Source of the DNA: Tomocerus qinae
Lineage: Eukaryota; Arthropoda; Collembola; Entomobryomorpha; Tomoceridae
DNA: 64,000 nucleotides
Assembly (NCBI GenBank): GCA_020055645.1
Contig: CM034546.1
Span: 127,989,875-128,053,874 of the forward strand
Direction: 5' to 3'
Shown here: positions 19,565 to 60,925 of the stretch, in pieces
Layout of the letters: every line of letters starts with the position of its first letter
How positions within the stretch are numbered: position 1 is the first letter of the stretch
Program-made: the position numbers and the translations under genes
Notes under the pieces: model-generated
Seen by the model: only the letters and a program-made list of their open reading frames with translations
What the model was told of the DNA's origin: nothing
Database searches by the model: none

Positions 19565-19645
19565 TTTATTTATTTATTCAATGTGGATAAGATCCTCGAT
19601 TCGAATGGTCTAAGTATAAGTGACGAATGTAAACGTGCATTTTAT

Positions 19646-40269: not shown

Positions 40270-41502
40270 ATGAGAGTATTATTGGTTGTTGCGGCCTGTT
40301 TGGTTGTAAGCTGTTTAGAAGTTCATGGAAAAAGGCCCCATGGCTCCCGACCTCCACCACCAGCTGCAAGACATCCGCCACCACAACGGGAAGCTGGGAA
40401 TAAAAGTGGTTGGGGATGGAACAGCGACCATGGCTCACTGTACGGACAACCTCCGAAGTGTGTTGATCCTGCCACAATTCAAACCACTACCGGAGACACA
40501 GATTTTGTAATTATTTTTATTTTATTTTACAAAACTGTTCTAAAGTTTCTTTGGTTGTACAAAAAAGTACGTTTTATTAATTGCGTTTTAAATATTTAAA
40601 TTTTCAGTTCAGCAGAGAGCGACTTTGGTATATATCTGGAACTGCTTACACTCTGAATAGTTACTACCGATCTTTCAACGGCCGTTATGCAACCAAACAG
40701 TCTCAGATCAACGAAATGTGCCCAGCTGCCATATTTAGTTCCGCCACTACAGTTGAAATCAATTCTGGAAGTGGAGTTCAGTGGCAACAGACTTGTACAG
40801 GAAATGAAATTGTTGCAACGTGCCACTCCAATAAAGATCCAGCAACTCACGATGCTGGTGCTGATCCATTTGCGATAGGTAAGAGTTAACATTTTGATAT
40901 CCTATTTAAAATATATATCAAAATAATTGAATTATAATTATTAATAACTTTTTATGTATATAGAACGCCAGGATTTCTATACCCTGAAAACCGACAACAA
41001 AAGTTACACTATCTCCTACGTTTGTAACGATAACACATATGGCGATTTGCAACTGTTGACCACAAGACCCTACATCAGTCCGGAGCTAGCAAGAACCTTC
41101 CTGTCTTTTTTCAAGGACTACAACATTTCAACCAACCAGGCTCAATTCTCCACCTGCAGTCCTCCCAAGATGGGGCCTTATCCACCTCCATTTCAAAACT
41201 ACCCAAATTCTGCTGGAGGACCGAATAGCAATGGTTGGGGTCAATCCGGATGGGACAGCACCGTTTCCACTGATGGCTGGTCATCTAACAATGGATGGTC
41301 TGACAACAGCAATGGATGGTCACCATCGCCACCATCAGACGGATGGTCTAGCAATGGATGGGGATCTGACAGCGTACCATCAAGTGGTTGGGGCTGGGAT
41401 AACCAAGGATGGAGTGCTAAGGTTGAGAAAACCGAAGAAGTCAAGAAAACTGAAGTGGCTAAAGAAGCAATGGCTGAAGTTGTGGCTGAAGTAGCCCTAT
41501 AA
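40270..41502 (+). CDS. Lipocalin-like secreted protein with Trp-rich tail, copy 1
   Basis: Three exons (40270-40506, 40608-40878, 40964-41502; phases 0 and 1) give 348 residues. A signal peptide (1-20) is followed by a Pro-rich stretch (RPPPPAARHPPP), SGWGWNSD and QPPKCVDP. The middle exon starts FSRERLWYISGTAY, placed like the lipocalin GxWY region. The third exon starts YTLKTDNKSYTISYVCND then LLTTRPYISPELARTFLSFF. That is the TDY and Arg signature of lipocalin conserved regions 2 and 3, as in apolipoprotein D. After C234 the tail has ten Trp between residues 261 and 319 in NGWS/DGWS/SGWGWD units, then a Lys/Glu/Ala end (AEVVAEVAL). A lipocalin barrel would carry a small hydrophobic ligand; the Trp-rich tail may self-associate or bind cuticle or sugar. 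The function is unknown. Confidence 0.8.
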
Positions 41503-42230
41503 AATGTTTATACACTATTTATTGCTATTTATTGAACATGTCTCTGATAAAATTAATATTTATTATTATATTTATGGCGATAATCACAATTTATTGTCTA
41601 ATTTATAAAAATTAATAATAACTATATAATAACATTGGAATTTGTACTATTAATGTCAAAGTAAGTAAATAAATAAATTAGACCTCTCCAAATTCTGAAC
41701 GGTTATCTGAAATGTTTGGTCACATTCTCAAAATCCCCAGGGGTTGTCATCAGGGAACTAAAAAGGATGTGTTTTCCTTCTTTAAATAATTAAAACACTT
41801 CTGTGACAAAAGTGAAATAGATTATAAGCATAAATCATTTATTGTAGAATATTTTATTATGGTATAGAAAGAATGTTGAATGTATTACCTAAGGGGAAAT
41901 AAAAAACGATAGATAGAAAAGTGGATAATCAACTGAGATAGTTGCAGGTCAAAGAAAATCTTATGTAATGTATTTCATATTATAAACGCTAAAACTATCT
42001 TATAATATGTACATAAACAGAAAAGCCAAGTTGAAAGTTGTTAAAATTTAGTCCAAATTTCTTATAATAATTTTAGCACCTAATACATGACTTAAATGCC
42101 GAAATAATCGGTAAAAAAGACATTACTAGAAATATTGATATCTTTTCTTAAATATATGTTAACAGCATGGAAAAGATTATAACATAAAGTTACGCATTAC
42201 TGATAGTTTGCATTTAATTAATAATTCGAA
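41503..42230. other. Duplicated intergenic spacer A
   Basis: 3' flank of copy 1. The segment at 41690-41775 (GGTTATCTGAAATG, GGGGTTGTCATCAGGGAA) recurs after copy 2 (44520-44625) and after copy 3 (51770-51860), showing that the flanks were duplicated with the genes. Confidence 0.6.
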
Positions 42231-42234
42231 TCTT

Positions 42235-42440
42235 ATGAATATAAATAGATACTATCACTGACAATATAAAATAGAGACAAGTTATCACGTTCTTTCAATA
42301 AATGCATACAAAAAAATTTCAGAATCATCATTCCTGGCTCCGTTTTATAAATTAATTCACTGCATGATATCTGAAATTAGGAAAATGCATGTATTTCTTT
42401 CTCAGCATGGTTATAGCAGGCTACCACTAATAAGCCCGTC
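42235..42440 (+). pseudogene. Promoter and exon-1 relic of an array member
   Basis: The words GAATATAAATAGATACTATC, CTTTCAATAAATGCATAC and AAATTTCAGAATCATCATTCC repeat the promoter and leader pattern of the array genes. About 50 bases later GAAATTAGGAAAATGCATGTATT resembles the leader and start of exon 1, but no signal peptide frame follows. A nearly parallel relic lies at 52430-52850. It is best read as a dead gene copy whose body was lost. Confidence 0.45.
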
Positions 42441-43083
42441 TTAGTAAACCTCCACCATTCAAAAAAATCACCAAATTGAAAGATGTAGCCCAATTCAAAT
42501 TAATTTCATGTCCTATTAAGTCTTAGCTAGGAAGGTACCAATGAATATTTTGGTTGGACTACATAATTGAAATGTATATCCGAATATTTACTTTTATACC
42601 TAAAAAATGAAAATGACAGCAAAGAAATTCTATTTATTTACGATACTTACGTAACAATACCCATAGCCATGTATATTTAGTACACAATGTACAGAACCGA
42701 GACTTAAAGGTCCGTCGACCTATCCATTTCACTTCGCTAGCCTACGGTAAAGTAACTAAATTAGAGCAGGCAATACAAAATGCATTGTAGAACTATTTCC
42801 GAACCCAATAGAAAGTAAAATTAGACAGGCCCTTAACAAACGGTAAAACTGGTATTAAACTAGCGATGTCTTTGTTGTATATTCACCACAATGTTTACAC
42901 AAATTAAATATATTTGTTTATTTAATCCTCAGAATATGAATACAAATAGTAATCATAAATGGTAACACATGAAAGAGAAGTACAGGTACCCAAAGGAGAA
43001 ATCTGTATAAATACAGACTACAAAGTTTCGAACTTATCATTTTACATTTTTGGTCTTCAATGCTCACTTCTCAAATTCGTAAA
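42441..43083 (+). promoter_or_regulatory. Spacer and promoter of array copy 2
   Basis: 42440-42600 (GATGTAGCCCAATT, GGTTGGACTACATA, TATCCGAATATTTACTT) matches 52870-52995. The block CTTAAAGGTCCGTCGACCTA at 42706 recurs at 53055, with close variants at 50042. The promoter contains TATAAATACAGAC at about 43008-43020 and TCATAAATGGTAACACATG upstream. Confidence 0.55.
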
Positions 43084-44347
43084 ATGAGAGTATTATTGAT
43101 TGTTGCGGTCTGTTTGGCTGTTAGCTGTTTAGCAGTTCATGGAAAAAGGCCCCATAGCTCCCGACCTCCACCACCAGCTGCTAAACATCCGCCACCACCA
43201 CGGGAAGTTGGGAGTAAAAGTGGTTGGGGATGGAACAACGACAATGGCTCGTTGTACGGACAACCTCCAAAGTGTGTTGATCCTGCCTCAATTCCAACCA
43301 CACCCGGAGACACAGATTTTGTAATTATTTTAATTAAATTTTAATTGCTTAACTGTTATAAAGTTGTCTTGTATAAAAAAGTACCTTTTATTAATTGCGC
43401 TTTAACGTTTTTCATTCTCAGTTCAGCAGAGAGCGACTTTGGTACGTACATGGAACTGCATACGGTCTAAATATTTTCTACCGAGCTTTAAACAGCCGCT
43501 ACGCAACCAAACAATCTCAGATCAACGAAATGTGCCCAGCCCAAATATTCGGTTCAAGCACCCCAGTTCAAATCAATTCCGGAAGTGGAGTCCAGTGGCA
43601 ACAGACTTGTACAGGAAATGAAGTTACTTCAACGTGCCACTCCAATAAAGATCCAGCAACTTATGATGACGGTGTTGATCCATTTGCGCTAGGTAATGAT
43701 TAAAATTTTGATCATTGATATCCTATTTAAAATATAGGTCAAAATAATTGAATCAGAATTATTATTAATAACTTTTTATTTATATAGAGCGCCAGGATTT
43801 CTACCTCTTGAAAACAGACAGCAAAACTTACGCTATCTCTTACGTTTGTAACGATAACACATATGGCGATTTGCAACTGATAACCACAAGACCCTACCCC
43901 AGTCCGGATATGGCAAGAATGTTTCTGTCACTTTTCAAGGACTACAACATTTCAACCAACCAGGCTGAATTCTCCACCTGCAGTGCTCCCAATATGGGGC
44001 CTTATCCACCTCCATTTCAAAATTACCCAAATTCTGCTGGAGGACCGAATAGCAATGGCTGGGGTGCAAGTGGATGGGACAGTACCGTTTCCACTGATGG
44101 CTGGTCTGCAAATAATGGATGGTCTGACAACAGCAATGGATGGTCACCTTTACCTCCATCAGACGGATGGTCCAGCAATGGTTGGGGCTCTGATAGTGGA
44201 ACATCATCGAGTGGTTGGGGCTGGGATAACCAAGGATGGAGTGCTAAGGTTGGGAAAAAGGAAGAAGGCCAGAAAACCGAAGGAGTTAAGAAAACTGAAG
44301 TGGCTAAAGAAGCAATGGCTGAAGTTGTGGCTGAAGTAGCCCTATAA
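43084..44347 (+). CDS. Lipocalin-like secreted protein with Trp-rich tail, copy 2
   Basis: Exons 43084-43320, 43422-43692 and 43788-44347 give 355 residues. It is closest to copy 1: the same GKRPHSSRPPPPAAKHPPPP stretch, FSRERLWYVHGTAY at the exon 2 start and LLKTDSKTYAISYVCND at the exon 3 start. The cysteine pair EMCPA and FSTCSAP is present. The Trp tail has the usual order (NGWGASGWDSTVSTDGWS and so on) and the longest charged end of the family (GKKEEGQKTEGVKKTEVAKE then AMAEVVAEVAL). An in-frame ATG eight codons upstream exists at 43060, but the ATG at 43084 matches the other copies and begins a clean signal peptide. Probable role as for copy 1: secreted, ligand unknown. Confidence 0.8.
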
Positions 44348-45099
44348 ATGTTTTTTACCCTATTTATTAGTATTTATTGAACATTTGCAAGATAAAATTA
44401 TATATTTATTATTATATATTTACACAATACAATTTATTTTCTAATTTATGTTTATTTCATTTAATAAATAATATTGGAATCTTTAGTAATAAATTGTCAA
44501 AGTAAATTAATTAATTAAACCCCTCTATATGCTGAAAGGTTATCTGAAATGCTTGTTCAAATTTTGACCTTCATCTCTAAAAACCTCCCTACAGAGGTTG
44601 TCATTAGGGAAATAAAAAGGATCTTTTTGACTTTTTTGCCTCCTTTGTTGATGGAGCAATTTTCCCCTTTTTATTTAATGTAATAAATAATGCAAAAAAG
44701 GTAAAAAACAAATAATGACTGCGTTTTATAAAAATGCATTAACTTTTTGTAAAAAGTCACATAAAAAGGTCTAAATACACGCCACAATGTAAATTTAATG
44801 ATACCAGATGAATTCAGATGAATTCGGATGAATAATTCCAAGAGGTCCGTAATTTTCAGGTTCTAAGTGATTAAGACATTATGCACAGATTTTCTTAGCG
44901 ATGGCTTAACTAGTGAATTTTCTTTAGTAAAAAATATACTACTTTATTCAAGGTTTATAAATTTTTACAGCATAAAAGCTAAAAAATACCATACGTGTAT
45001 AAAAAGGTGACATACTCCTTTAGTTGCAATGAAAAACTATTTTTTGGTAAAATTTTCTAAAAAAATATGGTCACATTTAATATATATGTAGGCACTAAA
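44348..45099. other. Spacer between copy 2 and UGT gene
   Basis: 44520-44760 resembles the flank of copy 3 at 51760-52000, including GTTATCTGAAAT, AAAAAGGATC and TTTTGTAAAAAG. The rest is AT-rich 3' flank of the UGT gene. No gene. Confidence 0.5.
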
Positions 45100-46951
45100 T
45101 TATAAAGACTTTTTTGATAACATTCTAGCTACCAGTTTACTTATGGCATAAGCTAAAATTATTGGAACTGACAAGGCAAACGCAAGAATGAAGAGAACTA
45201 CATCCAAATCTCTCCTTTCAAACCAATTGAGATCTGCATTTTTAGGATGTAGGACAGTCAAGTCTTCATGACGAAGTGTGTACTCGATCCAGTAAACTGC
45301 AGTCTCGACAGGTGTGGCTGGTCTGTCACGAAACATTTTTGACATTTTTTTCATGTTCTCTCGGTACCTTAAATACAAAATAGATTGATAATAAAATCTA
45401 TGACTTAAAAGCATTCCAATTACTAGAGGAATGGGAATTTGATGCCTATCAGTGAATGAGTGTGTTAATTCTTATTTTACTTGGAATTGGAGGTCATTTC
45501 AGTTACGGCTTCTGTCAACAATTGAGTATTAATATTCTGTCTTGTTTGAAGCCTAACACCAATGTCTTCTACTTCGATTCTGTAAGCATTGTAAAATTGA
45601 TCTCCGAACATTGGAAATGCAATCAGAGGAACTCCAAAGAAAGTTGCTTCCTGAATACTATTAATACCGCAGTGGGAAATGAATGCTAAGGTTTTTGGAT
45701 GTTCTGTTGAGAAAATATATAGTTTTAAATTGAATTTAAATAAAGGTGTGTTTCTACAAGAATGGTATTGTTTTATTTAATCATGATTACACTAACCCAA
45801 AATTCCCTTCTGAGGGAGCCATTTAGAAACAAGGAGATTCTTTGGTCGGCTTTCCTGAGGGATGTCATCTTCCCACTTCCAGATGAAATGAATTTTAGGA
45901 AACTTGACCATCATATCAAAGAAAGTGCTCAGCAATGTGGTCGAAATTTCCTTGGTGTCAAATGTTGATCCGAAGGCTATAAGAATGACACCATCTTGTG
46001 CTTCATTGATGAATTGCAACATATCCTGAAAGGAAGATAATTTTTATCAAGTCATGATTAATATGGAAATAATTATTAAAACAATTTCGAGCTAACCTTT
46101 GGAATTTCTTCGGACTGTCCCCAACAGGTCATTCCTCCTATTTGAATAACCATAGGTGGCAAGGATCTTGCAAAATCAGTTGTGAAGTGGGAATTGGTGA
46201 GGAGTAAACTTGCATTTCTTTCCATTTCTACTAAACTGGGTATTTTATCATCAGGTGAGTTATCTCTTAGAAATTGTTCTAGTTTGGGATACATCGTTGA
46301 TTGTTTGAAGTATGAAAATTTCAAGGAGGAAATGTAGTTTTCAACTCGATTTAAGAAAGTCATCGGATACGTGTAAGCAACAGAGACTAAGGAAGGAATC
46401 CACGCAGATTCCGTAGGAATTCCGTAGATGTCTGGATGCCACGGGAATAAGGTGGTGGCATCAGAAATAATGTACTTTGAATGTTTTTTGTAAGCGAGCA
46501 CAAATCCACACTCGGCATACGCAGCGTTGATAATTATGAGATCGTAGGGATTTTTGTGGGCGATGTCATGCAGCTCTGGGTCTTTCTCGTACGGAGTATT
46601 TAGAACGACATCGCAAACACCCACCGTCCAATTAGTAATTTTCAAATACAAATCACTCTCTGTATTTGATGTCACGGCGGATTGTCTGTCTGGCCGAAGA
46701 ACTTTCGCCATTAAGTCAATCAAACTTTCGGGTGCTACATCTTTTACTTTGGGATTTTTGTAGGGTTGCTTTTCATGCGGAGATAGAAATGTCACGTTAT
46801 GACCTCCTTCTACTAAACCTGTCACTAATGGCCAAATTGACACTTTATGGCTATACGAGTTACCGGCGAAAAAGAATAAAATGTTATCTCCCTTTGTCCA
46901 CTGACCCTGCAGCAGGGTGACCGTCACTGCAAACGCTAATATAACTCGCAT
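45100..46951 (-). CDS. UDP-glycosyltransferase (UGT)
   Basis: Four exons (46951-46097, 46025-45797, 45703-45481, 45367-45100; phases 0, 1 and 2) give 524 residues, the normal UGT size. A signal peptide (MRVILAFAVTVTLLQGQW) leads into the variable acceptor-binding half. The UGT signature runs from F369 to Q397 (FISHCGINSIQEATFF, GVPLIAFPMFGDQ), the site that binds the UDP-sugar. A C-terminal transmembrane helix (DVVLFILAFALSVPIILAYA) and a short Lys-rich cytosolic end (SKKSL) fit a type I ER membrane enzyme. UGTs conjugate sugars to small lipophilic compounds for detoxification or pigment and hormone handling. The gene is antisense to and inside the lipocalin-like array. It appears intact; the substrate is unknown. 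Confidence 0.93.
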
Positions 46952-46993
46952 TGTTGAATATTTTCACCGAACTATAAACAGCAGAATATTTGT

Positions 46994-47027
46994 ACTGAAA
47001 ATGATGGAGGAAAAACTGGCTTTTATA
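46994..47027 (-). promoter_or_regulatory. Core promoter of UGT gene
   Basis: TATAAAA on the minus strand (47027-47021) and an initiator-like TCAGT (46998-46994) are about 30 bases apart, followed by the ATG at 46951. Confidence 0.55.
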
Positions 47028-48383
47028 TTTAGGTATGCATGTCATAAAAATATGCACGTGCTTTCAACAAGCAGGTGACTGTTGCGTAAGATATATTGTT
47101 ATCGTCATATTAATTAATCTCCACACTCTAACCTATATTACCACATAGTTCATAGATTAGAAATAGGTGTAATAAATATATATTAATATAATTTAGCAAT
47201 ACCTACAATGTTTAATCTGTAGCTCTCAGCAAAGATAATCAAAGTTAACTACCTCGTAGTTATTAGTATTATTTATATTATTATCAGCAATCATTACATT
47301 GTTTTTCACATAAGCACTTTGACTCTGCACTTGGATTCTCGTGACATTTACCGTTCACTTTTAGATAAGTCAGGTGACTCTTTTACTATTGAAATGTAAC
47401 CTAATCAATACCACGGCAACCTTAAGTTTATTCACGTGATGGACACATTGCAAACTCTGTTATTACAATGTCACAACGTAGTTTAAAAGAACTTAAAATA
47501 AAATGCTAAGGGAACATTTTCATACTTTACTAAAACTCCTAACAGACCAAATTAGACTCGTTCTATTGTTATCCTATTATCCTATTGTTATCGTCATCCA
47601 GGGTTATGGGTTGGGTCACCTGTTGCTTAGGGTAGTCAAAATGCGTCGTGTCAGATTGGAAACAATTTTTTGTAGATTGAAAATCAACTGATACTGACGT
47701 CACAAATTGTGATGATGATAGGAATAGGAAAATTGTGAGTAGGTTTTAAATGATTAGCTGGTAAATTTATTTGAGAATAATTATTTAGAGATCAATAGCA
47801 GCCGGATGTTAAAGAAATAAACAGTTTTTGTAGATAAAACTTGGACATTTAACAGGGGTGCCAATTAATTTGTATGGCACACACATGACTTTTGTTGTTA
47901 TGACTTACCTATTGAATTTGTATGGAAATAATGACTAAATATGTATGGTGATAGTTTTTTATAAACATGCATAGTATACCAATACAAGATATATATCACC
48001 ATAAGGTGGTAAATTAATTCAAGTCTAAAAATATATTGTAGAACGATAATACATAAGTAGAAACTGCACATACAGCCATGCAGAATGCAGAAAGTATGGG
48101 TAGTTAGTTATTGAAAACCTTAATTGTTGCCAACATTTTAGGTGTTTATTCACATAATATACCCATAATATCAAATAATTATGGTTTAGCTCAATGAATT
48201 ATCTATATAAAAGCCATTATTAAAATTCCGGATTCTACTCATTGTAGTATTGTAGACAGCTGTTACATATTTCAAAATTTTTCTACTAGCACACCGGTAT
48301 TATACGCGGTACCGGTACGCGGTATTTGTGAATTTGTGTACTAAAAATAGTGTGTATTTTAACAATCTTGTATAATATTAGGC
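47028..48383. other. Intergenic DNA, no gene seen
   Basis: 5' flank of the UGT gene. AT-rich. The plus-strand frame at 47503-47691 lacks any coding sign. Confidence 0.5.
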
Positions 48384-48523
48384 TTTAAAACCAGTGTACA
48401 AAATTTACCACTTTTTAGCCTTTTTTACCATCACAGTGGTAAAAATGCACTTAATGGTAAAAATGGTAGATTTTAGCGATTGATTAGACAGCTGAGTACA
48501 GATACACTAGACTTCCTAATATA

Positions 48524-49877
48524 CAGGGATAGTACTAAGTTCCAATACACGTTTGTCGGCTAATAACTCAAAAACTAGAGCAGATAGAGAAATGGGAGTA
48601 CTACCATTGGAAAGAGGCTGAACTAACTTAAAGATTGGTATATGAAAAGTACTTATTTGAAAGTAATTAATAGTCAAAAAATAATGATGAACTAAAATTT
48701 AATTTATACATGGGGAACTATAGGGAACAGATACTTGACATTTATTAACTTTTGTAAGTCGTAAAGAATATTTCATGTGTAAAAACTACCGGGAAGTGAT
48801 TCGTCGTGTCAAAAAGCGATTTCTAACCATATTACTTCCACATCCAGCTATTATTAAAAGTGTTGTTAAAAAGTTTATGTCCTAACTCTTGAGACATTTC
48901 TCCACTGTAAAATGGTGGTTTCGATTGGTCCAGTACACTTGATTTCTTCGATTAAAAATTTCATTGAGATTAAAATTGCACTCATCACTCCACACTATGT
49001 CTTCCAATAATTCGGATTTTCAGCAAGAAGTGATAAGCAATCGTTACAGAATTCACTCGGTTGATTTGATGAGGTCTCATTCAGTGTTCCATTTTAGCCG
49101 GCTTAAAAGCTTTTTGACCAGCCGGCTAGTCATATTAGCCAGCCAGCCGGCCGGCTAAAATGGCCGGTCTCCGAACCCTATAGTTCGATTTTAGCTGACT
49201 AACAAGCTTTTTGGCCAGCCGGCTACCCATTTTAGCCGGCCGGCTGGTTAAAATGGCCGGTCACTGAACACTTGTCTCATTTTTCTGGGATTACTTCCTT
49301 GACTTTGGTAGGCCAGTAACAACGATACAGACTTTTCCTTAATGCTTTTTGGACATTAAGCCCACGTATTCATGAATTTTTAGAAATGTCTCGACTGGAC
49401 TGACTTGGACTACAGAGTACCGACTTACTTAGAGTACGAATTCTTACTTTATTTTATTCTGTGAGGACGACAAATGGGGGGCCAGCTCGCGATCGGTCAT
49501 CTACTGCATTTCCAGTTTCTTCAAACTTTTTAACTACACTTTTAATAATAGTGTGAGGTGGGGGTAATATGGTCGAAAATCGCTTCTTGACTCGACGAAT
49601 CACTTCCCGGTAGTTTTTACACATTAAATATTCTTTACAACTTACAAAAGTTAATAAATATAGGGTATGTTTTCCCTATAGTTTCCCATGTATAAATTAA
49701 ATTTTAGTTCATCATTATTTTTTGACTACTATTTACTTTCAAATAATTACTTGTCAGTCATATACCAATCTTTAAGTTAGTTCAGCCTCTTTCCAATGGT
49801 AGTACTCCCATTTCTCTATCTGCTCTAGTTTTTGAGTTATTAGCCGACAAACGTGTATTGGAACTTAGTACTATCCC
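48524..49877 (-). mobile_element. Tc1/mariner-like foldback transposon with decayed transposase
   Basis: Arms of about 350 bases (48524-48880 and 49527-49877) are inverted copies starting CAGGGATAGTACTAAG and TGGGATAGTACTAAG. On the minus strand the interior reads VVKKFEETGNAVDD then RSRAGPP (49535-49465), the N-terminal DNA-binding region of Tc1/mariner transposases. At about 49065-48925 it reads NPNYWKDIVWSDECNFNL then NRRNQVYWT, containing the second catalytic Asp (WSDE). Stops, a missing middle and a nested insertion show it is dead. The left arm also repeats the start of the transposase frame, so it is a rearranged foldback derivative. Confidence 0.8.
49082..49273. mobile_element. hAT-like MITE nested inside the Tc1/mariner element
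   Basis: This 192-bp GC-rich insert is flanked by a perfect eight-base duplication GTCTCATT (49074-49081 and 49274-49281) with short inverted ends around AGTGTTC/GAACACT. Its interior is made of AGCCGGCT and GGCCGGCTAAAATGG palindromic units. It interrupts the transposase frame, so it is the youngest layer of the nest. Confidence 0.8.
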
Positions 49878-50019
49878 ACCATTCATACCACTTACCACTA
49901 CTTTTTAGGTAGTGGTATTTAACGTTAAATACCATTAAAAACCACTTACCACTGGTAAGTGGTAAATGGTATTTTGTACACTGTTTAAAACAGACAATGT
50001 GTTACTAAATATAACATTA

Positions 50020-50335
50020 TAGAACTACTCCACTACTGACTTAAAAGTCCGTCGACCTAACAATTTCCACTTTATGGCCTACGGTAAACTAGTAACCAGA
50101 GAACCCAATGCAAGTACTATATTTTCGTACCAAATAGAAAGCAAAATCAGGCAGGATATTTTATCCACAGAATCTGAATATATACAGTAATCATAAATAT
50201 TATACTAGTAACAGGAACAGAGAAGTACAGTTGCTCCGTCCAATAATCTGAATAAATACAGAAAACCATATTTCAGTTTAACCATTTCGAGTGTCTGACC
50301 TCATCAATTCTAACTTTTCAGTCGAAATTCTAAAA
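50020..50335 (+). promoter_or_regulatory. Upstream block and promoter of array copy 3
   Basis: The block ACTTAAAAGTCCGTCGACCTA (50039) and the core promoter CTGAATAAATACAG (about 50248-50262), followed by CATATTTCAG, match the other copies. The outer hAT element ends only about 50 bases upstream of the shared block. Confidence 0.55.
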
Positions 50336-51558
50336 ATGAAAATATTATTTGTTTTTGCGGCCTGTTTATCTGCTAGCTGCTTAGCATCTGCACCTGGAAA
50401 AACAATCCAAGGCCGTCGAAATCCACCACCACACCGGGAAGCTGGGGATAAAATTGGTTGGGGATGGAACAGTGACAGTAGCCCGCTATACGGACAACCT
50501 CCTAAGTGTGTAGATCCTGCTACAATTCCAACAGCCCCATACGGAGACTTAGTTTGGGTAATAATTTATTTTAAATTTTAAACTCCATTTTACTTTTGCT
50601 AAAAATGTTTCTTTGATATTGACAAAAGTTTTTATTAATTGCGTTTTACCATTTTCAGTTTGGCAGAAAGCGACTTTGGTACTTACATGGAACTGCATAC
50701 GGCCAGAATCTTTATTACCGATCTTTCAACGGCCCACCCGCAACCAAACAGTCTCAGATCGACCAAATGTGCCCAACTGTCACATTCAGTACTTCCAGTT
50801 CAATTCAAACCAATTCCGGAAATGGAGTCCAGTGGCAACAAATTTGTTTAGGAACAGAGACTTCAACGTGCACTCCCATTTACGATCCAGCAACTTACGA
50901 CGAGGGTGTTGATCTTTTTGCGATACGTAATACTTAACATTTTGAGATGGTTATTATTAACATATTATTGTCAAAATAATTCAAATTATTAATAACTATG
51001 TGTGTGTGTGCCATTTATATAGAACGCCAAGATTACAAACTCCTTAAAACAGATGCCAAAACTTACGCTATCTACTATTGCTGTAACGATTACTTGCATG
51101 GTGATTTGCAACTGTTCACCACAAGACCTTACGTCAGTCCAGAGCTGACAAGGACCTTTCTGTCATTTTTCAAGAAATACAATATTTCAACCAACCAGGC
51201 TGAGTTCTCCATCTGCAGTTCTCCCAAGTTCGGGCCTTATCCACATCCTTTTGAAAACTACCCAAATTCTGCTGGAGGACCGAATAGTAATGGCTGGGGT
51301 GCAAGTGGGTGGGACAGTACCGTCTCTACTGATGGCTGGTCTGCTAATAATGGATGGTCTGACAACAGTAATGGTTGGTCACCATCACCTCCATCAGATG
51401 GGTGGTCTAGTAATGGATGGGGCTCTGACAGCGGACCATCAAGTGGTTGGGGCTTGGATAACCAAGGATGGAGTGCTAAGGTTGGGAAAAAGAAAGAAGA
51501 TAAGAAAACCGAAGTACTAAAGAAAACTGAAGAAGCAGTGGCTGAAGTAGCCCTATAA
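50336..51558 (+). CDS. Lipocalin-like secreted protein with Trp-rich tail, copy 3
   Basis: Exons 50336-50557, 50659-50926 and 51023-51558 give 341 residues. The signal peptide is MKILFVFAACLSASCLASA and the Pro stretch is short (GRRNPPPHREAG). Exon 2 begins FGRKRLWYLHGTAYGQ, and exon 3 KLLKTDAKTYAIYYCCND carries an extra Cys next to the conserved one. The pair QMCPT and FSICSSP is intact. The exon 2 donor follows C rather than G, so the split codon reads Gln where copies 1, 2, 4 and 5 have Glu. One of the tail tryptophans is lost (GWGLDNQGW). The tail is shortened to KKTEEAVAEVAL. It is more divergent than copies 1/2 and 4/5 but shows no disabling change. Confidence 0.78.
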
Positions 51559-52425
51559 AATGGTATATATCTTATTTATTAGTATTTATTGAACATGTAT
51601 CTGATAAAATTAATATTTATTACTGTATTTATGGTGATAATAACAAGTTATTGTTTAATTTATAATCTAATTAACAATATATTTCATTTCATAACTAAAA
51701 ATAATGGAATCTGCCTACTGTGATCAAAGTAAATGAATCAAATTAAATATATAAATTACACCCTACCAAATTCTTAAATGTTATCTGAAATTTTTGGTCA
51801 CATTTTGTCCTTTATCTCTCAAAATCCCCAAGTGGAGTTGTCATCAGGAAACAAAAAAGGATCCTTTTCCTTCTTTAATGGCGCAATTTGCCCCACATAG
51901 TTTATGATAAGAGCAAAAAAAGGAAAAAAAAACAAAAAACGACTGAATTAAAAAGAAAAATAAAACTTTTTGCTTTTTTGTAAAAAGGAGCATTTTTTTG
52001 TTCCATAGTTGTCACAGTGAAACAGAGATCAACGATTTGACTGTTCAGAATTAACCAAATTATAATTCCTCAGAGGGGACATTTTTAACATAGATGTGAT
52101 CTTATATGTTGTATCAACTATAATTTATTATTATTTCTTTGTTAATTTCAGAACAACTTTTAGATGTTGTAATTTAGTTTAAATTACTTACAATTTTCTC
52201 AAAAGTAAAGTTTACATCTACCAACCTTTGTAATTGTATCAATTGGTTACACAAACATAATATTATATAGCTTTCTTATAGAACTTTGTGAACATAGAAG
52301 TGCCTGAATAATCGGTAAAAAAGACATTAACTACAAATATTGATATTATTTCGTTCTTGTATGTTCACAGCATGCAGAATATTACATAAAGTTACACATA
52401 ACGGCAGTTGGCATTATTAATTCGA
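51559..52425. other. Duplicated intergenic spacer B
   Basis: Matches spacer A after copies 1 and 2, including GTTATCTGAAAT, AATCGGTAAAAAAGACATTA (also at 42107) and GTTACGCAT/GTTACACAT words. No gene. Confidence 0.55.
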
Positions 52426-52429
52426 ATCT

Positions 52430-52850
52430 TATGAATATAAATAGAAACTATTTCTGCCAATATAAAATAGAGACACATACATCTATCCCGTGAAAATCTT
52501 TCAATAAATGCATACAACAAATTTCAGAATCCTCATTTGGCATCATAAATCAATTTACCGTTGATATATGAAACTAGCTGCTGACCCAGCACAGTGTGCA
52601 AGAAAAATGTTGACATAAGTAATTTTCATATAGGAATTTCATCAATAGACCATTGACTATTTAGTAGACCAATTTTTGATGCCAAAGAGTGTTGAAATGT
52701 AAAGCAAAATCAATACTGATTGTCTACTCATCACAAAACGATACGGAGATATATACAACGGTCAACAGCACGTTTATGTGTAGTAAAGATTATGATTGTA
52801 TTTCTTTGCCATCATGGTTAGCTGGCTAGCACTAATAAGTTGGTCTTAGT
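52430..52850 (+). pseudogene. Second promoter and exon-1 relic
   Basis: GAATATAAATAGAAACTATT, ATCTTTCAATAAATGCATAC and AAATTTCAGAATCCTCATT parallel the relic at 42235 and the promoters of intact copies. About 250 bases further on, ATGATTGTATTTCTTTG then GGTTAGCTGGCTAGCA resembles a decayed start and signal peptide of exon 1, with a stop inside. The gene body is missing. Confidence 0.45.
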
Positions 52851-53049
52851 AAATCTCCTCCAGCATCCAAAATACATTCACCAAATCGGAAAGATGTAGC
52901 CCAATTAAAATTTCATGTTCTATTAAATCTTAAGTATGACGATACAAATGAATATTATGGTTGGACTACATAGTATATCCGAATATTTACTTGTAGACAC
53001 AATATACAGGACTTATACGTACAATACCCATTAGACATGTACAGAATCA

Positions 53050-53438
53050 CCAACTTAAAGGTCCGTCGACCTATCTTTTTCATCTCAATGGCCTAAGGTA
53101 AAGTAACCAAAGCGCCCAATGCAATATACTACTATATTCCAGTACCCAATAGAAAGTAAAATTAGACCAGCCCTTATCAAACGGTAAAACCGGTATTAAT
53201 ACTACCGGTGCCATTGTTGTACATTCGTTTACACAGTGGACTACAAATTTACAAAGGAAGGCACTTATTTATTTAATTCTCAGAATATGAATAGAAATAA
53301 TAATCATAAGTCAACACATGAAAGAAAAGTACAGTTTTAGCTCGCGGAAAAATCTGAATAAATACAGACAACAAAATTTCAGAATTATCAGTTCGAGTTC
53401 ACCCTTTTCAATATCACTTCTCAGTCGAAATTCTAAAA
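53050..53438 (+). promoter_or_regulatory. Upstream block and promoter of array copy 4
   Basis: Carries CTTAAAGGTCCGTCGACCTA, AAACGGTAAAACCGGTATTAA and the core CTGAATAAATACAGACAAC then AAAATTTCAGAATTATCA, nearly identical to copy 1. Confidence 0.6.
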
Positions 53439-54681
53439 ATGAGAGTATTATTAGTTGTTGTGGCTTGTTTGGCTGCTAGCTGCTTAGCAATTGCACCTGG
53501 AAAAAGACCCCAAGGTCCCCGCCCTCCACCACCACAAAGAAGACATCCACCGCCACAACGGGAAGCTGGGGATAAAAGTGGTTGGGGATGGAACAGCGAC
53601 AATAGCCCGCTTTACGGACAACCTCCAAAGTGTGTAGATCCTGCCACAATTCAACTTGGCTCATACGGAGACGTAGATTGGGTAATAACTTATTTTAAAA
53701 TATACTTTTCTTACTTAACTGTTTCTTTGAAATTGTGCAAAATATTTTATTAATTGCGTTCTACAATTTTGCAATTTCAGTTTGGCAGAGAGCGACTTTG
53801 GTACATTCATGGAACTGCATACGGTCTGAATATTTACTACCGATCTTTCAACAGCCGTTATGCAACCAAACAATCTCAGATCAACGAAATGAGCCCAGCT
53901 ATTTCATTCAGTTCCACCACCTCAATTCAAATCAATTCCGGAAGTGGAGTACAGTGGCAACAGACTTGTACAGGACAAGAAGCTGGAACTTGCTACTCCA
54001 TTAAAGATCCAGGAACTTACGACACTGGGGCTGATCCATTTGCCATAGGTAATAATTTACATTTTGAGATCTTTAACATGTCACCGTCAAAATAATTGAA
54101 TTCAAATGATTAATAATAACTGTATTTTTATAGAACGCCAGGATTACTACCTCCTCAAGACAGATGCCAAAACTTACGCTATCTACTACCTGTGTAACGA
54201 TTACACTCATGGCGATATGCAACTGGTAACCACAAGACCCTACCCCAGTCCGGATATAGCAAGAATCTTCCTGTCTCTTCTCAAGGACTACAATATTTCA
54301 ACCAACCAGGCTGAATTCTCTACTTTCGATTCTCCCCAATTTGGACCTTATCCACATCCTTTCGAAAACTACCCAAATTCTGCTGGAGGACCGAATGGAA
54401 ATGGCTGGGGTGCAAGTGGATGGGACAGTACCGTTTCCACTGATGGCTGGTCATCTAACAATGGATGGTCTGACAACAGTAATGGATGGTCACCATCACC
54501 TCCATCAGAAGGATGGTCTAGCAATGGTTGGGGCTCTGACAGTGGACCATCAAGTGGTTGGGGCTGGGATAACCAAGGATGGAGTGCTAATGTCGGGAAA
54601 AAAGAGGAAGCTAAGAAAACCGAAGAAGCCAAAAAAACTGAAGAAGCAGTTGCTGAAGTTGTGGCTGAAGTAGCCCTATAA
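53439..54681 (+). CDS. Lipocalin-like secreted protein with Trp-rich tail, copy 4
   Basis: Exons 53439-53681, 53781-54048 and 54134-54681 give 352 residues. The signal peptide is MRVLLVVVACLAASCLAIA, then a Pro stretch (RPQGPRPPPPQRRHPPP). Exon 2 starts FGRERLWYIHGTAY and exon 3 LLKTDAKTYAIYYLCND. Two cysteines found in copies 1-3 and 6 are replaced together: EMCPA is EMSPA and the FSTCSP-type site is FSTFDSP. The Trp tail is complete and the charged end is long (KKEEAKKTEEAKKTEEAVAE). It is very close to copy 5, so the two come from a recent duplication or gene conversion. Confidence 0.8.
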
Positions 54682-56609
54682 ATTGTTTTTACACACTATT
54701 TATTACTATTTATATTTGTTGTGGTAATAACTATTTATTGTCGAATGTATAAATTTATTTATTTCATCAATAAATAATATTGGATCCAGTACTAAATGTG
54801 ATTTTATTTTTGACATATTCTTTGTTCATCCCAGAATAAGTTTTTAGATACCTTTAATTACCAATATAGTATTACTGCCATTAAAATACTTTGACAAAAG
54901 TAAAATAAGCTATACTAATATAAAGGTCAAACATTTTTAATACAGAATATTTTCTGCTATCCAAAGATTCTTACATTAAGGCGAAATCAAGACGATAGTT
55001 AGAAACTTTGGAATATCAGCGTAGATATTTGCATGCAAGCACCGATCCAGTAGAGGTGTGGACGCAGCGGCCCCTAATTCTGAAAATAGAAATTGTTTCC
55101 AAAAATTGCTAATATATTATACTACATTTTTGCCATAATTATTTGTCCAGCGCTTCTTGGCCAAATTACTTAATGCAAAAATCGTAAATTATTTAATGTA
55201 ATGTATTCATATTCTAAAGCTAAACTTAAAGACTAATCATCATTCTTAAGCAGAAAAACGGCAAATTGAAAGTTTTTATTTATCCTAATTAATTTAGCCC
55301 CAAGAGTTAAACTTTATATTATCTGTAGATCCCAAACTATGGTTGTAATTGTAATAATTTCGCCAGAATTTACTACATGTATTACTATTATAAGAAATAA
55401 TATCGTTTTGAAAACATCTATTTCTTTTAAAATAAAATTGTTAACTACATTTCATATTTGACTTTGGTATAAATATCGATGTAATATTTTTCAAATTTTA
55501 TATTGTAATAGTATAATTGTAATGGTTAATGTGAGTTTAAACGAAGTTTAATAAACTATTTTCATTGTATTAATACACTATGCACAGTAACACTCAACGT
55601 AGCTCTCAATTTATCACGTTGAGATGATGAAAGAAGTGGAACATTTCCCAATGGGAAAAATCTTGGTGAATGAGAGGATTGGAAATATCCCATTAGAAAT
55701 GAAAAACAAACGCTCAAGAATTTCGATCTATATATTCTGACTAGCACTAAGACGACATCCAGTAAAAAACATATATAAAATAACACCCTTTTAAGTAGGG
55801 CACTTTTAGCACATTTAGGTTTTCATGCAAAAAATGTCTTTTATTAATTTTGTCTCGTTGTGGATCAGTTCGGTCCAATGTAGTCCAATTCGGTACAATT
55901 CCTTCAATGCCGTTCTTATTTTGAAAAATACTCATATTATTATGCTACCCATAGCATCAACAGACTACAAAGTTGGTATTAGGCATGCTGTAAATTATTT
56001 TCTACTTCTCACAACTTCCTAGATCACTCTAATTATCTATAGTCTACTGCCAACGTCTATGACAGATATTGTAAAAAAATTCTGATTAGTTGGATTCCTA
56101 GAATTCCAAATATCATCCCATCATCATTAAAATAAATAAAAATGAAGTCGATAGTCACATAGGCTTATCGATAAATCGATAGACTTGTCTTGGTAGTTAC
56201 AAGAGAAATGAAACAAAGCCAGCCCCTTTTATTTACCGTACTTACATTACATATAACAATACCCAAATAAATCTACCTATTTGGGTATAGAACAGAGCAA
56301 CAGACTTAAAACTAGAGCACCCCATGCAATGTAGTACTATTCCATTGCACAAAAGAAAATAAAATTAGACGAATAAACGAAACGGTAATTTCAGCAGCTC
56401 ATAAAATGACAGAGAAAGGCATTTAGAAAGGCTTTTAATCCTTAGTGTATACTTAAGTACCTAATAATAACATTCACATGCCACAATAAAATATTGTCAC
56501 CAACGGCATGGAAAAATCTGAATAAATAGAGCCGGCACAACTCGAAAATCATCATTCCTTGTTATTCCTCTTCAACAGCCATTTCTTGGTTAATTTTCAA
56601 TTTCTGAAA
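54682..56609. other. Spacer between copies 4 and 5
   Basis: The start (TATTTATATTTGTTGTGGTAA, ATTGTCGAATGTAT) matches the 3' flank of copy 5. The last 300 bases contain the copy 5 promoter (CTGAATAAATAGAG at about 56518). The middle, 54900-56200, has no recognised gene; small minus-strand frames at 55562-55935 lack support. Confidence 0.5.
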
Positions 56610-57850
56610 ATGAAAATATTACTTGTTGGTTTGGTATGTTTGGCTGTTAGCTGTTTAGCAGTTCCTGGAAAAAGACCCCAAGGTCCCCGTCCTCCACCAC
56701 CACAAAGAAGACATCCACCACCACACCGGGAAGCTGGGGATAAAAGTGGTTGGGGATGGAACAGCGACAATAGCCCGCTTTACGGACAACCTCCAAAGTG
56801 TGTAGATCCTGCCACAATTCCAGTTGGCTCATACGGAGATTTAGATTGGGTAATAACTTATATTAAAATTTTAACTCCATTTTACTTTTCTCATTTAACT
56901 GTTCATAAATTTGTTAAAACTTTTTTTGGTATTGGATGCGTTTTATTAATTGCCTTTTGCCATTTTCAGTTTGGCAGAGAGCGACTTTGGTACATTCATG
57001 GAACTGCATACGGTCTGAATATTTACTACCGATCTTTCAACAGCCGTTACGCAACCAAACAATCTCAGATCAACGAAATGAGCCCAGCTGTCATTTTCAG
57101 CTCCTCCACCCCAATTCAAATTAATTCCGGAAGTGGAGTCCAGTGGCAACAGAATTGTGTAGGACCAGAAGCTGGAACTTGCTACGCCGTTAAAGATCCA
57201 GAAACTTACGACACTGGTGCTGATCCATTTGCCATAGGTAATACTTAACATTTTATGTCTTTAATATATTATCGTCGAAATAATTGAATCAAAATTATTA
57301 ACAACTTTTTATTTATATAGAACGCCAGGATTACTATCTCCTCAAAACCGATGCCAAAACTTACGCTATCTACTACATGTGTAACGATTACACTCATGGC
57401 GATTTGCAACTGTTGACCACAAGACCCTACCCCAGTCCGGATATAGCAAGAATCTTCCTGTCCCTTTTCAAGGACTACAATATTTCAACCAACCAGGCTG
57501 AATTCTCTACTTTCGATTCTCCCCAATTCGGACCTTATCCACATCCTTTTGAAAACTACCCAAATTCTGCTGGAGGACCGAATGGCAATGGTTGGGGTGC
57601 AAGTGGATGGGACAGTACCGTTTCCACTGATGGCTGGTCTGCTAATAATGGATGGTCTGACAACAGTAATGGATGGTCACCATCTCCTCCATCAGACGGA
57701 TGGTCTAGCAACGGTTGGGGCTCTGACAGCGGACCATCAAGTGGTTGGGGCTGGGATAACCAAGGATGGAGTTCTAAGGTTGAGAAAAAGGAAGAAGCCA
57801 AGAAAACTGAAGAAGCAGTAGCTGAAGTTGTGGCTGAAGTAGCCCAATAA
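56610..57850 (+). CDS. Lipocalin-like secreted protein with Trp-rich tail, copy 5
   Basis: Exons 56610-56849, 56970-57237 and 57321-57850 give 345 residues. The signal peptide is MKILLVGLVCLAVSCLAVPG. Exons 2 and 3 are almost identical to copy 4, including loss of the same two cysteines (EMSPA and FSTFDSP). The intron 1 sequence stays open in frame with exon 1 and exon 2, so an unspliced reading gives a false long frame; the conserved GT-AG join is preferred. Tail: ten Trp units, then KVEKKEEAKKTEEAVAEVVA, ending in AQ instead of AL. The upstream region differs more from copies 1-4 and resembles copy 6. Confidence 0.8.
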
Positions 57851-59733
57851 AATGTTTTTATACACTATTTATTACTATTTATATTTGTTGTGGTAATAAC
57901 TATTTATTGTCGAATGTATGAATATATTTATTTCGTCAATAAATAATATTGGATCAAGTAACCAGTACTAGATGTGATTTCAGACTTATTCTTCGTTCAT
58001 CCCAGAATAATTTATTTAATTTAACCCAGAGCGTATTTCATTTTTATGTAATACGCATTTTGGTTTTACTATCGCCCTACCAGACATACATAGATAATAG
58101 ATATATAGGTAGGTAAATTCATTGCTTTATCAAGTCTATGATTATAATCATTACTATAGAATAAACGTAAACTAATTCATGCGCATTAAACGCATTCATA
58201 TGTATCACAGGCATCTACATGTTGTAGCAACCTCGTTGCTGTACGAATCGAATTTTGCTACACCCATAACTAAGCCCCGCTCCCAAAGCGGGCGAATTTA
58301 TTTTCTCTGGACACTTGAATGTTTTCAATGCCTGATTGTATGTATCGCTATCACTATCATTACATCAATACTATTAGATTAACGGCAATAGTTAGACATG
58401 TGTGATGACCAATTCCGTTTGCCTGTTTGTACTTCTGTGTGTTAATCCGACGCATTCTAATAATACAACCAAGCACGACCTAATTTCTACTTAAAATAAT
58501 ATATTCAATGAAGCAAATTCCCACAAACGCGAAGCAGGTTCAGTGACATAATTAAGTGGTTTATATACACCCTCTGATTGGCGAATTACGTAAATATCCA
58601 TGTAATCTCCGCCCCTTTTTACATGCATTTGACATTGTGTATTATAACTTAAAACATTTAATTTTCTTATTGGCCTCTTTTCGGTCGATAAGAAAATTGA
58701 GACCAATAATTGAGATTAACTTGGCCTCAAAACAGTCCATTGTCCCTTAATGCATAATGGTGGTTCAAACTAATGTAAACGTATTCCCCAAAGTCTAAAA
58801 ATGTGACCTTTGTGAAATATCGACAACGCTATTTCGATACAAAAAAATTTCTTCTAAGCCGTACTATGGCGACATTTTGGAACAATGTTTTACTCCAGGT
58901 TTGGAGTAATTTAAAAAAATTTTAAACAATATCTACAGAGTTTTATTTGTCAATATAGGTAAAAAGGATTATAAGATTGAAATTAATACACAAAATCTGT
59001 GTACCCAATGAATTTTGCTCAACCTATACTCACTAGCTTTATTTATAACAGGACCTGGGATCTATGACCGGCTAGTATAGAGATAATAATCTCTATGAAA
59101 ACATCTTTAAAAGCTGAAAGACGGGCTGATATATGCAGTAGACCAATTCAAACTTTCATGAACCATAAATATATATTATATATTAAGTCGAATTAGTCAT
59201 GAATATAAAGGTATGTTTTGGGCTAAATAATTGAAACAGGTGGGTGTTAGACTATTTACTTATCTTTGTATTGTAGTCAGGAGAGAAATGAAAATGACAG
59301 CAAAGCCAGCCCCTTTTATTTACCGTACTTACATAGAACAATGCTCAAATACATCTATTTATGTATAGAACAAAACCACGAACTTGAAACTAGAGCACCC
59401 AATGCAATGTAGAACTATTTCCTTGCACAATAGAAAGTAAAATTAGAAAGGTCCCAGACTAAACGGTAAAAGATTAATACAAATATGTGTGTATATTTCT
59501 TGTGCATTCACCAGAATATTTACACAACTTGCAGCAGCTCATAAATTTGACAGTGAAAGGCATTTGGCTTTTAATCCTTAGTATATACTTAAGTACCTAA
59601 TAATAACATTCACATGCCTGAATGAAATATTGGCAGCAACGCCATGGAAAAATGTCAATAAATACAGACGGTACAACTTGAAAATTATCATTCCTTGTTA
59701 TTCCTCTTCAACAGCCATTTCTCCGATCTGAAA
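57851..59733. other. Spacer between copies 5 and 6
   Basis: Contains the dispersed repeat copy at 58077-58113 (see 5192). The upstream block of copy 6 from about 59280 (AAATGACAGCAAAGCCAGCCCC) matches upstream of copy 5 (56210), and the core promoter TCAATAAATACAGAC is at about 59654. No other gene. Confidence 0.5.
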
Positions 59734-60925
59734 ATGAAAATATTGTTACTTGCTGGTTTGTTATGTTTGGCTGTTAGCTGTTTAGCATCTGCACCTGGGA
59801 AAAGGCCCAATGGACCACCACCTAGAAGACCATCACATCGGAATACTGGAGATAAAAGTGGTTGGGGCTGGAACGGCGAACCTCTACACTATGGAAAACC
59901 TCCTGCTTGTCTCAATATAGACTCTATTCCATACAACAGTACCCGGGATAATGCCTTTGTATGTTTTTATTTATAATTTAGTGCTGTAATTTTCTAGAAT
60001 TTTTGACCATTTAGAAAACTTTTCTTGATGACATGTTTGAGATTTTTGTAATAAATAATATCAATATTTCCATTTTAGTTCCACCGAGTGAGGCCTTGGT
60101 ACTATTCATTTGGAACCGCCTACGGTTTGAATGCCTATTACAAAGTTTTCAACGGCCGACCCGCAACTAAACAGAGTCAGATCGACCAAATGTGCCCAGT
60201 TGTATCATTTGGATTCGAACCAATTCAAAATAATACAGGAAGCGGAGTCCAATGGGGACAGTATTGTGACAGTATGGGTCTTCATATAACTGGAGTCGGC
60301 CGTTGTTACACGACAACTGATCCAACAACCTATGATAAGGGTGTGGATCTATCTGCACTTGGTAATTATATCGGCTTTGTCTATTCTATTCTAGATAATT
60401 CTATTTGAATCTGAAGTACGTATTAATAATTGTGTCTATTTATATTTTACAGTACGCCAGGAATATTATCTTATCAAAACAGACAGCAAAGAATATGCTA
60501 TCTACTACGTTTGCAACGATATAAGCAAGGGAGATCTCCAATTACTTAGTCCAAGACCCTACGTCAGTCCGGATGTGGTGAAAATCTTCCTTTCCCTACT
60601 TCCCATCTTCAACATTAAAGTTTCTGAAGCTCAAGCCGCCATCTGCAGTTCTCCCGATTTCGAGCATTATCCACCTCCACTTGAAAACTACCCAGATTCT
60701 GCTGGAGGACCGAATAGCCATGGCGATGGCTGGGGTCATAACGAATGGCAAATCACTATTTCCACTGATGGCTGGTCGGCTAATAATGGATGGACCGATC
60801 ACAGTAATGGATGGTCATCATCACCACCATCAAATGGCTGGTCTAACAATGGTTGGGGATCTGATAATGGACCATCATCTAGTGGTTGGGGTTGGGATCA
60901 CCAAGGATGGAGTGCTGACGTCTAA
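59734..60925 (+). CDS. Lipocalin-like secreted protein, copy 6, shortened tail
   Basis: Exons 59734-59958, 60079-60361 and 60453-60925 give 326 residues. It is the most divergent copy: signal peptide MKILLLAGLLCLAVSCLASA, short Pro stretch (GPPPRRPSHRN), FHRVRPWYYSFGTAYG at the exon 2 start and LIKTDSKEYAIYYVCND in exon 3. The cysteine pair QMCPV and AAICSSP is present. The Trp tail is present with small changes (NEWQITISTDGWS), but the protein stops at GWSADV. The Lys/Glu/Ala end is absent; the bases after the stop (AAAGAAACCAAGAAAATCGAAG) are its remnant, out of frame. So the tail end was lost by a stop or frameshift after duplication. The Trp domain itself seems maintained. Confidence 0.78.

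Follow-up and report, generated by a model that had tools for sequence, protein, structure and literature searches.

A tandem array of lipocalin-like genes with a conserved Gly-Trp tail in the springtail Tomocerus qinae

A stretch of 64,000 nucleotides from the springtail Tomocerus qinae (assembly GCA_020055645.1, contig CM034546.1, positions 127,989,875 to 128,053,874; the window, or C1:127989875-128053874 in a genome of 334 Mb) carries six tandem genes, the predicted proteins of which join a core that is, by its sequence, a divergent lipocalin to a low-complexity tail of Gly-Trp pairs. The array is real and is larger than first described, and the tail is conserved more than the core. It is this mode of tail evolution that is new here. 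The genes had been picked out earlier from the sequence alone (the original prediction) as a secreted carrier with a Trp tail, in a fusion not known as a described family. Indeed, no description was found in the protein databases or in the open-licence literature, as covered by titles and the beginnings of abstracts, with most subscription journals and supplements outside its reach.

The six genes and their Gly-Trp tails

All six genes lie on the + strand between positions 40270 and 60925 of the window, and each is modelled as three exons with GT-AG introns of 83-120 bases. In every copy the first intron is in phase 0 and the second in phase 1, and none of the spliced models has an internal stop, which bears out the prediction of six same-strand genes with common exon phases. 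Copy 1 is at 40270..41502 (exons 40270-40506, 40608-40878, and 40964-41502; 348 amino acids (aa)), copy 2 at 43084..44347 (exons 43084-43320, 43422-43692, and 43788-44347; 355 aa), copy 3 at 50336..51558 (exons 50336-50557, 50659-50926, and 51023-51558; 341 aa), copy 4 at 53439..54681 (exons 53439-53681, 53781-54048, and 54134-54681; 352 aa), copy 5 at 56610..57850 (exons 56610-56849, 56970-57237, and 57321-57850; 345 aa), and copy 6 at 59734..60925 (exons 59734-59958, 60079-60361, and 60453-60925; 326 aa). The models are predictions from sequence; the exons of copies 3 and 6 were recovered identically by a custom spliced aligner with the proteins of copies 1 and 5 as queries. There are no other family members on either strand of the window at E values up to 0.01 (tblastn with 25 aligned family proteins). 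Five of the six copies have a TATA-like AATAAATA[CG]AG at 77-89 bases before the ATG, and in copy 2 there is TATAAA at -78.

The order of parts in the proteins is as originally described: a hydrophobic leader, called by eye as a signal peptide, a Pro-rich stretch, the core, the Trp tail, and a charged end in all but copy 6. Copy 6 has the same build as the others, with a stop codon directly after its tail, behind which alignment with copy 5 identifies a non-coding remnant of the charged C-terminal segment (60926..61005, + strand, the end being approximate). The genome tail search, with the tail of copy 4 (54349..54594) as its query, places the other tails at 41179..41424 (copy 1, including a YP-rich lead-in), 44003..44251 (copy 2), 51238..51483 (copy 3), 57536..57781 (copy 5), and 60668..60922 (copy 6), all on the + strand.

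About ten Trp at every 5-9 residues of the tail had been predicted. There are ten in copies 1, 2, 4, 5, and 6, and nine in copy 3, but the spacing is not strictly 5-9, being 5, 9, 6, 7, 9, 5, 10 or 11, 2, 5, and in copy 3 5, 9, 6, 7, 9, 5, 10, 7. In every copy the Trp are spread more evenly than if placed at random between fixed ends (P 0.0002-0.01, the copies not being independent of one another). The residue before Trp is Gly in 10/10 cases in copies 1, 2, 4, and 5, in 9/9 in copy 3, and in 9/10 in copy 6, a level never matched by shuffled sequences (5000 per copy). Across the six copies the GW segment is made up of 19-22% Gly, 19-27% Ser, 12-13% Asn, and 14-16% Trp, with a net charge of -6 and no Lys or Arg. 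Tandem Repeats Finder reports no array inside any of the six tails, which makes the tail unlike a young DNA minisatellite; for copies 1, 2, and 4 it has entries in the charged segment.

Gly-Trp or Trp repeats occur in antimicrobial peptides, peptide-hormone precursors, Argonaute hooks, and C-mannosylated TSR-like repeats. That the tail is one of these is highly improbable: the positive net charge of an antimicrobial peptide is not found in any of the six GW segments, the lack of Lys and Arg leaves no basic cleavage sites for a hormone precursor, the W-x-x-W of C-mannosylation is absent from each of the six copies (with one instance in a relative, U1, described below), and a GW182-type Argonaute hook is cytosolic, whereas the leader and the conserved cysteines suggest secretion.

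The ratio of nonsynonymous to synonymous divergence (dN/dS) was estimated by Nei-Gojobori counting for the six related copies, with 2000 codon bootstraps for each comparison. Pooled over all 15 pairs it comes to 0.44 for the core against 0.18 for the tail, and for three branch-disjoint pairs (1-2, 4-5, and 3-6) it is 0.41 and 0.16, with dS at 0.42 and 0.41, respectively. Without copy 6 the core is at 0.47 and the tail at 0.11. The tail equals or exceeds the core in 0.25% of the bootstraps for all pairs, in 0.3% for the three pairs, and in 0% without copy 6; a Fisher test on rounded counts for the three pairs gives 0.0024. By region, the ratio of mean dN to mean dS is 0.53 for the leader, Pro-rich arm, and GWGW, 0.38 for the core, 0.17 for the tail, and 0.33 for the charged end, which has few sites. 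Between copies, residues differ in 3.3% of the pairwise comparisons at Trp and at the Gly before it, in 15.7% at the spacers, and in 32.3% in the core.

That the tail is guarded more strictly than the carrier part would suggest that it probably does real work. It is decidedly unlikely that the lipocalins have expanded here in the ordinary way, with the tail as no more than a passive appendage of low complexity, adding solubility or length without a specific binding role. Tail lengths do vary across loci, as such an appendage would allow, and in the available part of PMC8214410, a survey of arthropod lipocalins with a tree that includes those of the springtails Folsomia candida and Orchesella cincta, the authors came across longer C-terminal segments on which they could reach no judgement, so that such tails may already have been met and set aside. 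However, dN/dS is lowest in the tail among the four regions, and a passive linker should drift, whereas here Trp and the preceding Gly are nearly fixed while the spacers change.

That recent gene conversion alone made the tails similar is rejected, given that dS in the tail is close to that in the core (pooled dS 0.41 vs 0.42, 0.37 vs 0.51, and 0.31 vs 0.33 in three pair sets), although some conversion is still possible. The 5' flank of copy 1 differs by 14% from that of copy 4 and by 20% from that of copy 2, and its 3' flank by 45% from that of copy 4 and by 19% from that of copy 3. The upstream flanks group copies 1, 2, and 4 (and 5 with 6), and the downstream flanks copies 1, 2, and 3 (and 4 with 5), a mosaic that points to gene conversion or unequal exchange within the array.

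The lipocalin-like core

The predicted lipocalin core is backed by family and structure searches. The lipocalin family PF00061 matches copy 1 at an E value of 4.4e-4, copy 4 at 1.8e-5, and copy 6 at 2.3e-4, the three copies for which values are given; copy 4 (25.4 bits) passes the cut-off of 23 bits, and copies 1 (20.9) and 6 (21.8) are under it. Of the 15 family cores, 10 also match it when E values up to 1 are allowed. Apart from this family, Pfam yields one match below 0.01, namely CsoS2_M in copy 4 (0.0057 for the whole protein, 0.0021 for the core), under its own cut-off. A profile of the 15 cores has 17 PDB matches at E up to 10, all of them lipocalins if OBP3, DigA16, and sandercyanin are, as we take them to be, of this class. 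Three chains of the dog allergen Can f 6 are the best of these and the only ones below 0.01 (0.0021-0.0025), the remainder being at 0.1-0.84, including apolipoprotein D (2hzq, 0.16) and bilin-binding protein (1bbp, 0.65). A profile of the six whole proteins has seven matches at E up to 10, of which six are lipocalins and one an adrenodoxin, the best at 0.52.

The motifs given in the original prediction stand in a slightly looser form. A T-D-type motif, KTDxKxY, and a later Arg region, RPYxSP, are present in all six copies, but TDxKxYAI in its exact form does not hold for copy 1, which has YTI, nor TRPYxSP for copy 6, which has PRPY. In the protein database there is no match at E up to 1 among 1760 candidates for copy 1, 943 for the alignment of the 15 cores, and 1 for the tail, in a collection that is perhaps thin for animals; this absence is weak evidence because no other lipocalin turned up either. 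NCBIfam gives scattered matches only, with one family member each, the best at 0.031.

Apolipoprotein D has two disulfides, one between an N-terminal Cys and the strand after TDxxxY and one between a Cys after strand A and a C-terminal Cys. Four cysteines matching this scheme are present in copies 1, 2, 3, and 6, and the pattern is consistent with two such bonds, which are predicted. In the 25 aligned rows of family members, numbered by copy 1, C117 and C234 are both present in 21 and both absent in copies 4 and 5 and in two array loci past the window, T8 and T13 (the second in a deletion in T13). For T10, which is outside this alignment, Phe is found at the place of C234 and C117 is not covered. 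C142 and C151 are both absent from all five rows of a separate gene cluster, V5 (V5b being gapped at the second), and the relative V1 is gapped at C142 owing to a frame change. C190 is missing from none of the rows, and C64 is uncovered in four partial rows. The cysteines thus support a disulfide-bonded extracellular fold, and their loss in pairs, together with the leader, is consistent with the secreted carrier that had been predicted.

In its barrel-type sequence, its TDxxxY followed soon by Cys (YxCND), and its cysteines compatible with two disulfides, the family is like the lipocalins of the apolipoprotein D and insecticyanin type (PF00061). Unlike the apolipoprotein D type, its proteins have R-x-W-Y rather than G-x-W and an extra pair of cysteines in exon 2, and they extend past the matched stretch on either side, by a Pro/GW N-terminal arm and by a Gly-Trp tail about 65 residues long.

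The array beyond the window and its relatives

The predicted extent, 40270-60925, covers only that part of the array that is within the window. Including fragments, there are 13 array loci between 128030144 and 128074998 on the contig, the last of them 21 kb past the window end (128053874); counts are lower bounds from exon-3, exon-2, and tail searches with spliced models. Of the seven loci past the window, T7 is intact and T11 is open with an end of its own. T8 has six tail Trp and a stop inside the charged segment, T9p is exon 1 only, and T10, in which exon 1 was not modelled, lacks most of exon 2 and has its charged segment interrupted by a stop. T12 has a tail of three Trp in a model without a start, and T13 has tail deletions that leave six Trp; a third intron proposed for it by the aligner is probably a deletion instead. 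A second cluster (129464504-129470711), 1.4 Mb from the array, holds U1, which is intact, U2, of which only exon 1 is present, and U3, in which exon 1 was not modelled and a stop closely follows the tail. The charged end is therefore lost or interrupted in copy 6, T8, T10, and U3, and it is absent from T12. No further copies were found in three flanking stretches.

More distant relatives on C1 are V2 (49.60 Mb), V3 (77.50 Mb, with one internal TAA), V4 (30.92 Mb), V6 (73.66 Mb), and the tandem cluster V5a-f (C1:50734383-50752012), which has no long tail and in which V5b has an internal stop and V5d is a piece. V1 (C1:19.98 Mb) is probably broken, since the reading frame shifts within its exon 2, for which reason the extra intron placed there by the aligner was rejected. 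On C4 there are two lipocalin relatives, V7a and V7b (C4:32765265-32769452), with tails rich in Tyr, Pro, and Asn and with Tyr in the N-terminal arm.

The genome has 15 matches to the tail with E values of 0.001 or less; they fall in 14 loci, all of them in the array and the second cluster. The Gly-Trp tail is thus confined, in the search of this genome, to this lipocalin clade. At the ten Trp columns of 13 loci of the clade (T10, T9p, and U2 not being aligned), 105 of 108 letters are Trp, gaps apart, and the loci differ considerably through the loss of whole stretches between Trp.

A tree of 25 cores, rooted on V7 by choice, places the GW-tailed genes and the broken V1 in one group (100/99), with V2 and the V5 genes nearest to it (91/87 against the rest), then V3, V6, V4, and V7. 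As V1 is inside the group, the GW-tail label needs two changes on the tree; V1 has a GNGW tail start followed by a different end, which would mean that it likely lost its tail. There is a single GGW at the end of V2, V5a, and V5b, and there are three GW pairs at that of V3. From a short GW end of this kind the long tail probably grew.

The N-terminal arm shows some correspondence with the tail, in what are few independent cases. GWGW precedes the core in all 12 models of the GW clade that have exon 1, invariant in the six window copies, and is also present in the exon-1 fragments T9p and U2 and in V1 and V3, with GGWG in V2; V2 and V3 therefore have GW on both sides of the core. V4, V7a, and V7b have Tyr and no Trp in both the N-terminal arm and the tail (the arm of V4 being assigned by eye, in place of the first exon given by the aligner). 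V5f has no Trp in either arm, and V6 has Tyr in the N-terminal arm and almost no tail.

Between copies 2 and 3 there is a UDP-glucuronosyl/glucosyltransferase gene in pieces (45100-46963, - strand; Pfam UDPGT, 5.8e-9 and 1.4e-17). The region of about 48500-49900, also between these copies, resembles what we take, by eye, to be a Tc1/mariner-type element. Within it a stretch near 48530-48800 is repeated inverted near 49570-49870, also by eye, and a transposase-like open frame (49454-49675, - strand) is at one side. Upstream of the array are open frames for an ankyrin-repeat protein (6045-9461, - strand), a MYND/SET protein (12670-13692, + strand), a large thioester-containing alpha-2-macroglobulin-like protein (15224-19573, - strand; best PDB matches CD109, then insect TEP1 and alpha-2-macroglobulin), and an F-box-like protein with leucine-rich repeats (36982-38466, + strand).

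Possible roles of the tail

The reading that we favour, to which we give an even chance, is that of a secreted carrier immobilised or multimerised via its aromatic arms, in which the anchor stays constant and the cargo part changes. A ligand-binding lipocalin barrel would lie between two low-complexity arms, of which the N-terminal is short and Pro-rich with GWGW, and the C-terminal has about ten Gly-Trp pairs in Ser/Gly/Asn spacers. The leader and the paired cysteines suggest secretion, and the arms are presumably disordered. The Gly-Trp pairs would then act as many weak stickers, with the Ser/Gly/Asn stretches as spacers, and would bind one another or one common surface, such as a lipid-water interface, chitin, or another matrix. 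Binding of this kind would fix or multimerise the barrel in extracellular material while the barrels diverge in their cargo, and duplication would give one anchor with many carriers. The faster change of the barrel may point to changing ligands. Because Trp favours lipid interfaces and can stack on sugars, binding to a lipid surface, binding to chitin, and self-association are all candidates.

Anchoring or polymerisation through the tail was part of the original prediction, and it gains indirect support from the fact that no other part is as constrained as the tail; anchoring as such we infer. Lazarillo is an insect lipocalin with a GPI anchor. The logic proposed here, of a lipocalin held at a surface by its C-terminus, is like that of Lazarillo, but in the proteins of the window the C-terminus is charged or ends with the GW tail, and it is not of the GPI-signal type. 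By eye, the six copies have no long hydrophobic C-terminal stretch, copies 1-5 ending in charged residues followed by AEVAL or AEVAQ, and copy 6 in GWSADV.

Several points weigh against the anchoring of a lipocalin by its tail. Constraint shows the tail to be important, but neither anchoring nor self-association follows from this, and exchange between copies could bias dN/dS. The array includes the shortened tails of T8, T12, and T13, which would mean either that the number of repeats is tolerant of change or that these loci are decaying. The N-terminal region is overall the least constrained (0.53), and V5a has an N-terminal arm without Trp yet one GW at its end, so the matching of the arms is imperfect. 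As to the barrel, outlier lipocalins may lack G-x-W. The array has RLWY in copies 1-5, RPWY in copy 6, and R-x-[WFY]-[YH] in the relatives in place of this sequence, which is named as the lipocalin signature in the available part of PMC8214410, and the best PDB alignment of the core profile begins past the first strand, where the replacement lies. Two AlphaFold models were unusable and neither is counted: that of exon 2, intron 2, and exon 3 of copy 3 (which happen to share a frame; the alignment rows were exon pieces of the other copies) has a mean pLDDT of 34.5, and that of exon 3 alone, with the other five copies, one of 36.6. The second draws strand-strand-strand-helix, an order that fits the C-terminal half of a lipocalin, which has little meaning at a pLDDT of 37. 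The barrel, which in lipocalins is an eight-stranded calyx followed by a C-terminal helix, is for this reason inferred from sequence.

Two narrower forms of the anchored carrier concern where it would be found, and each is rather unlikely taken singly. The first is that the Trp tail is a structural element of the cuticle, to which the barrel delivers, or in which it stores, cuticular lipids. The affinities of Trp for sugars and lipid interfaces would suit this, but no cuticular-protein family is among the Pfam matches of the array proteins (three copies and 15 cores, in tests that had no CPLCW-specific model). The CPLCW cuticular proteins of mosquitoes, which share a cuticular domain in which Trp is invariant, are likewise of low complexity with Trp as a hallmark, although a lipocalin domain is not mentioned for them in the available part of PMC12426002. 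The second, held at the same level, is a sticky secretion, such as an adhesive, spermatophore, egg coat, or defensive film, in which the Gly-Trp pairs drive gelation. The tail suits a sticker-and-spacer layout, and lipocalins are discussed as one of the protein families in a defensive secretion of centipede legs, along with Pro- and Gly-rich proteins as a prominent feature of sticky secretions (PMC11170834). The tick and centipede proteins are similarly secreted arthropod lipocalins in functional fluids, but the available part of that source makes no mention of a Gly-Trp tail in them.

Possible, if doubtful, is a family in which the tail comes first, with selection acting mainly on the Gly-Trp anchor and the barrel as replaceable cargo. 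The matching arms, Trp with Trp and in the relatives Tyr with Tyr, would then be two-ended stickers that build a ligand-loaded extracellular condensate, gel, or film.

As a rule, a low-complexity tail would be expected to change more quickly than the folded domain to which it is attached. The expected order is reversed here, in genes that are still diverging at synonymous sites. The loci also form a natural series, with three to ten Trp, with Trp or Tyr, and with or without the charged end, for probing aromatic stickers outside the cell. If the tail does anchor or gel the carrier, it may be a module for engineered films, and the family would represent a route from a soluble lipid carrier to a surface coating or depot.

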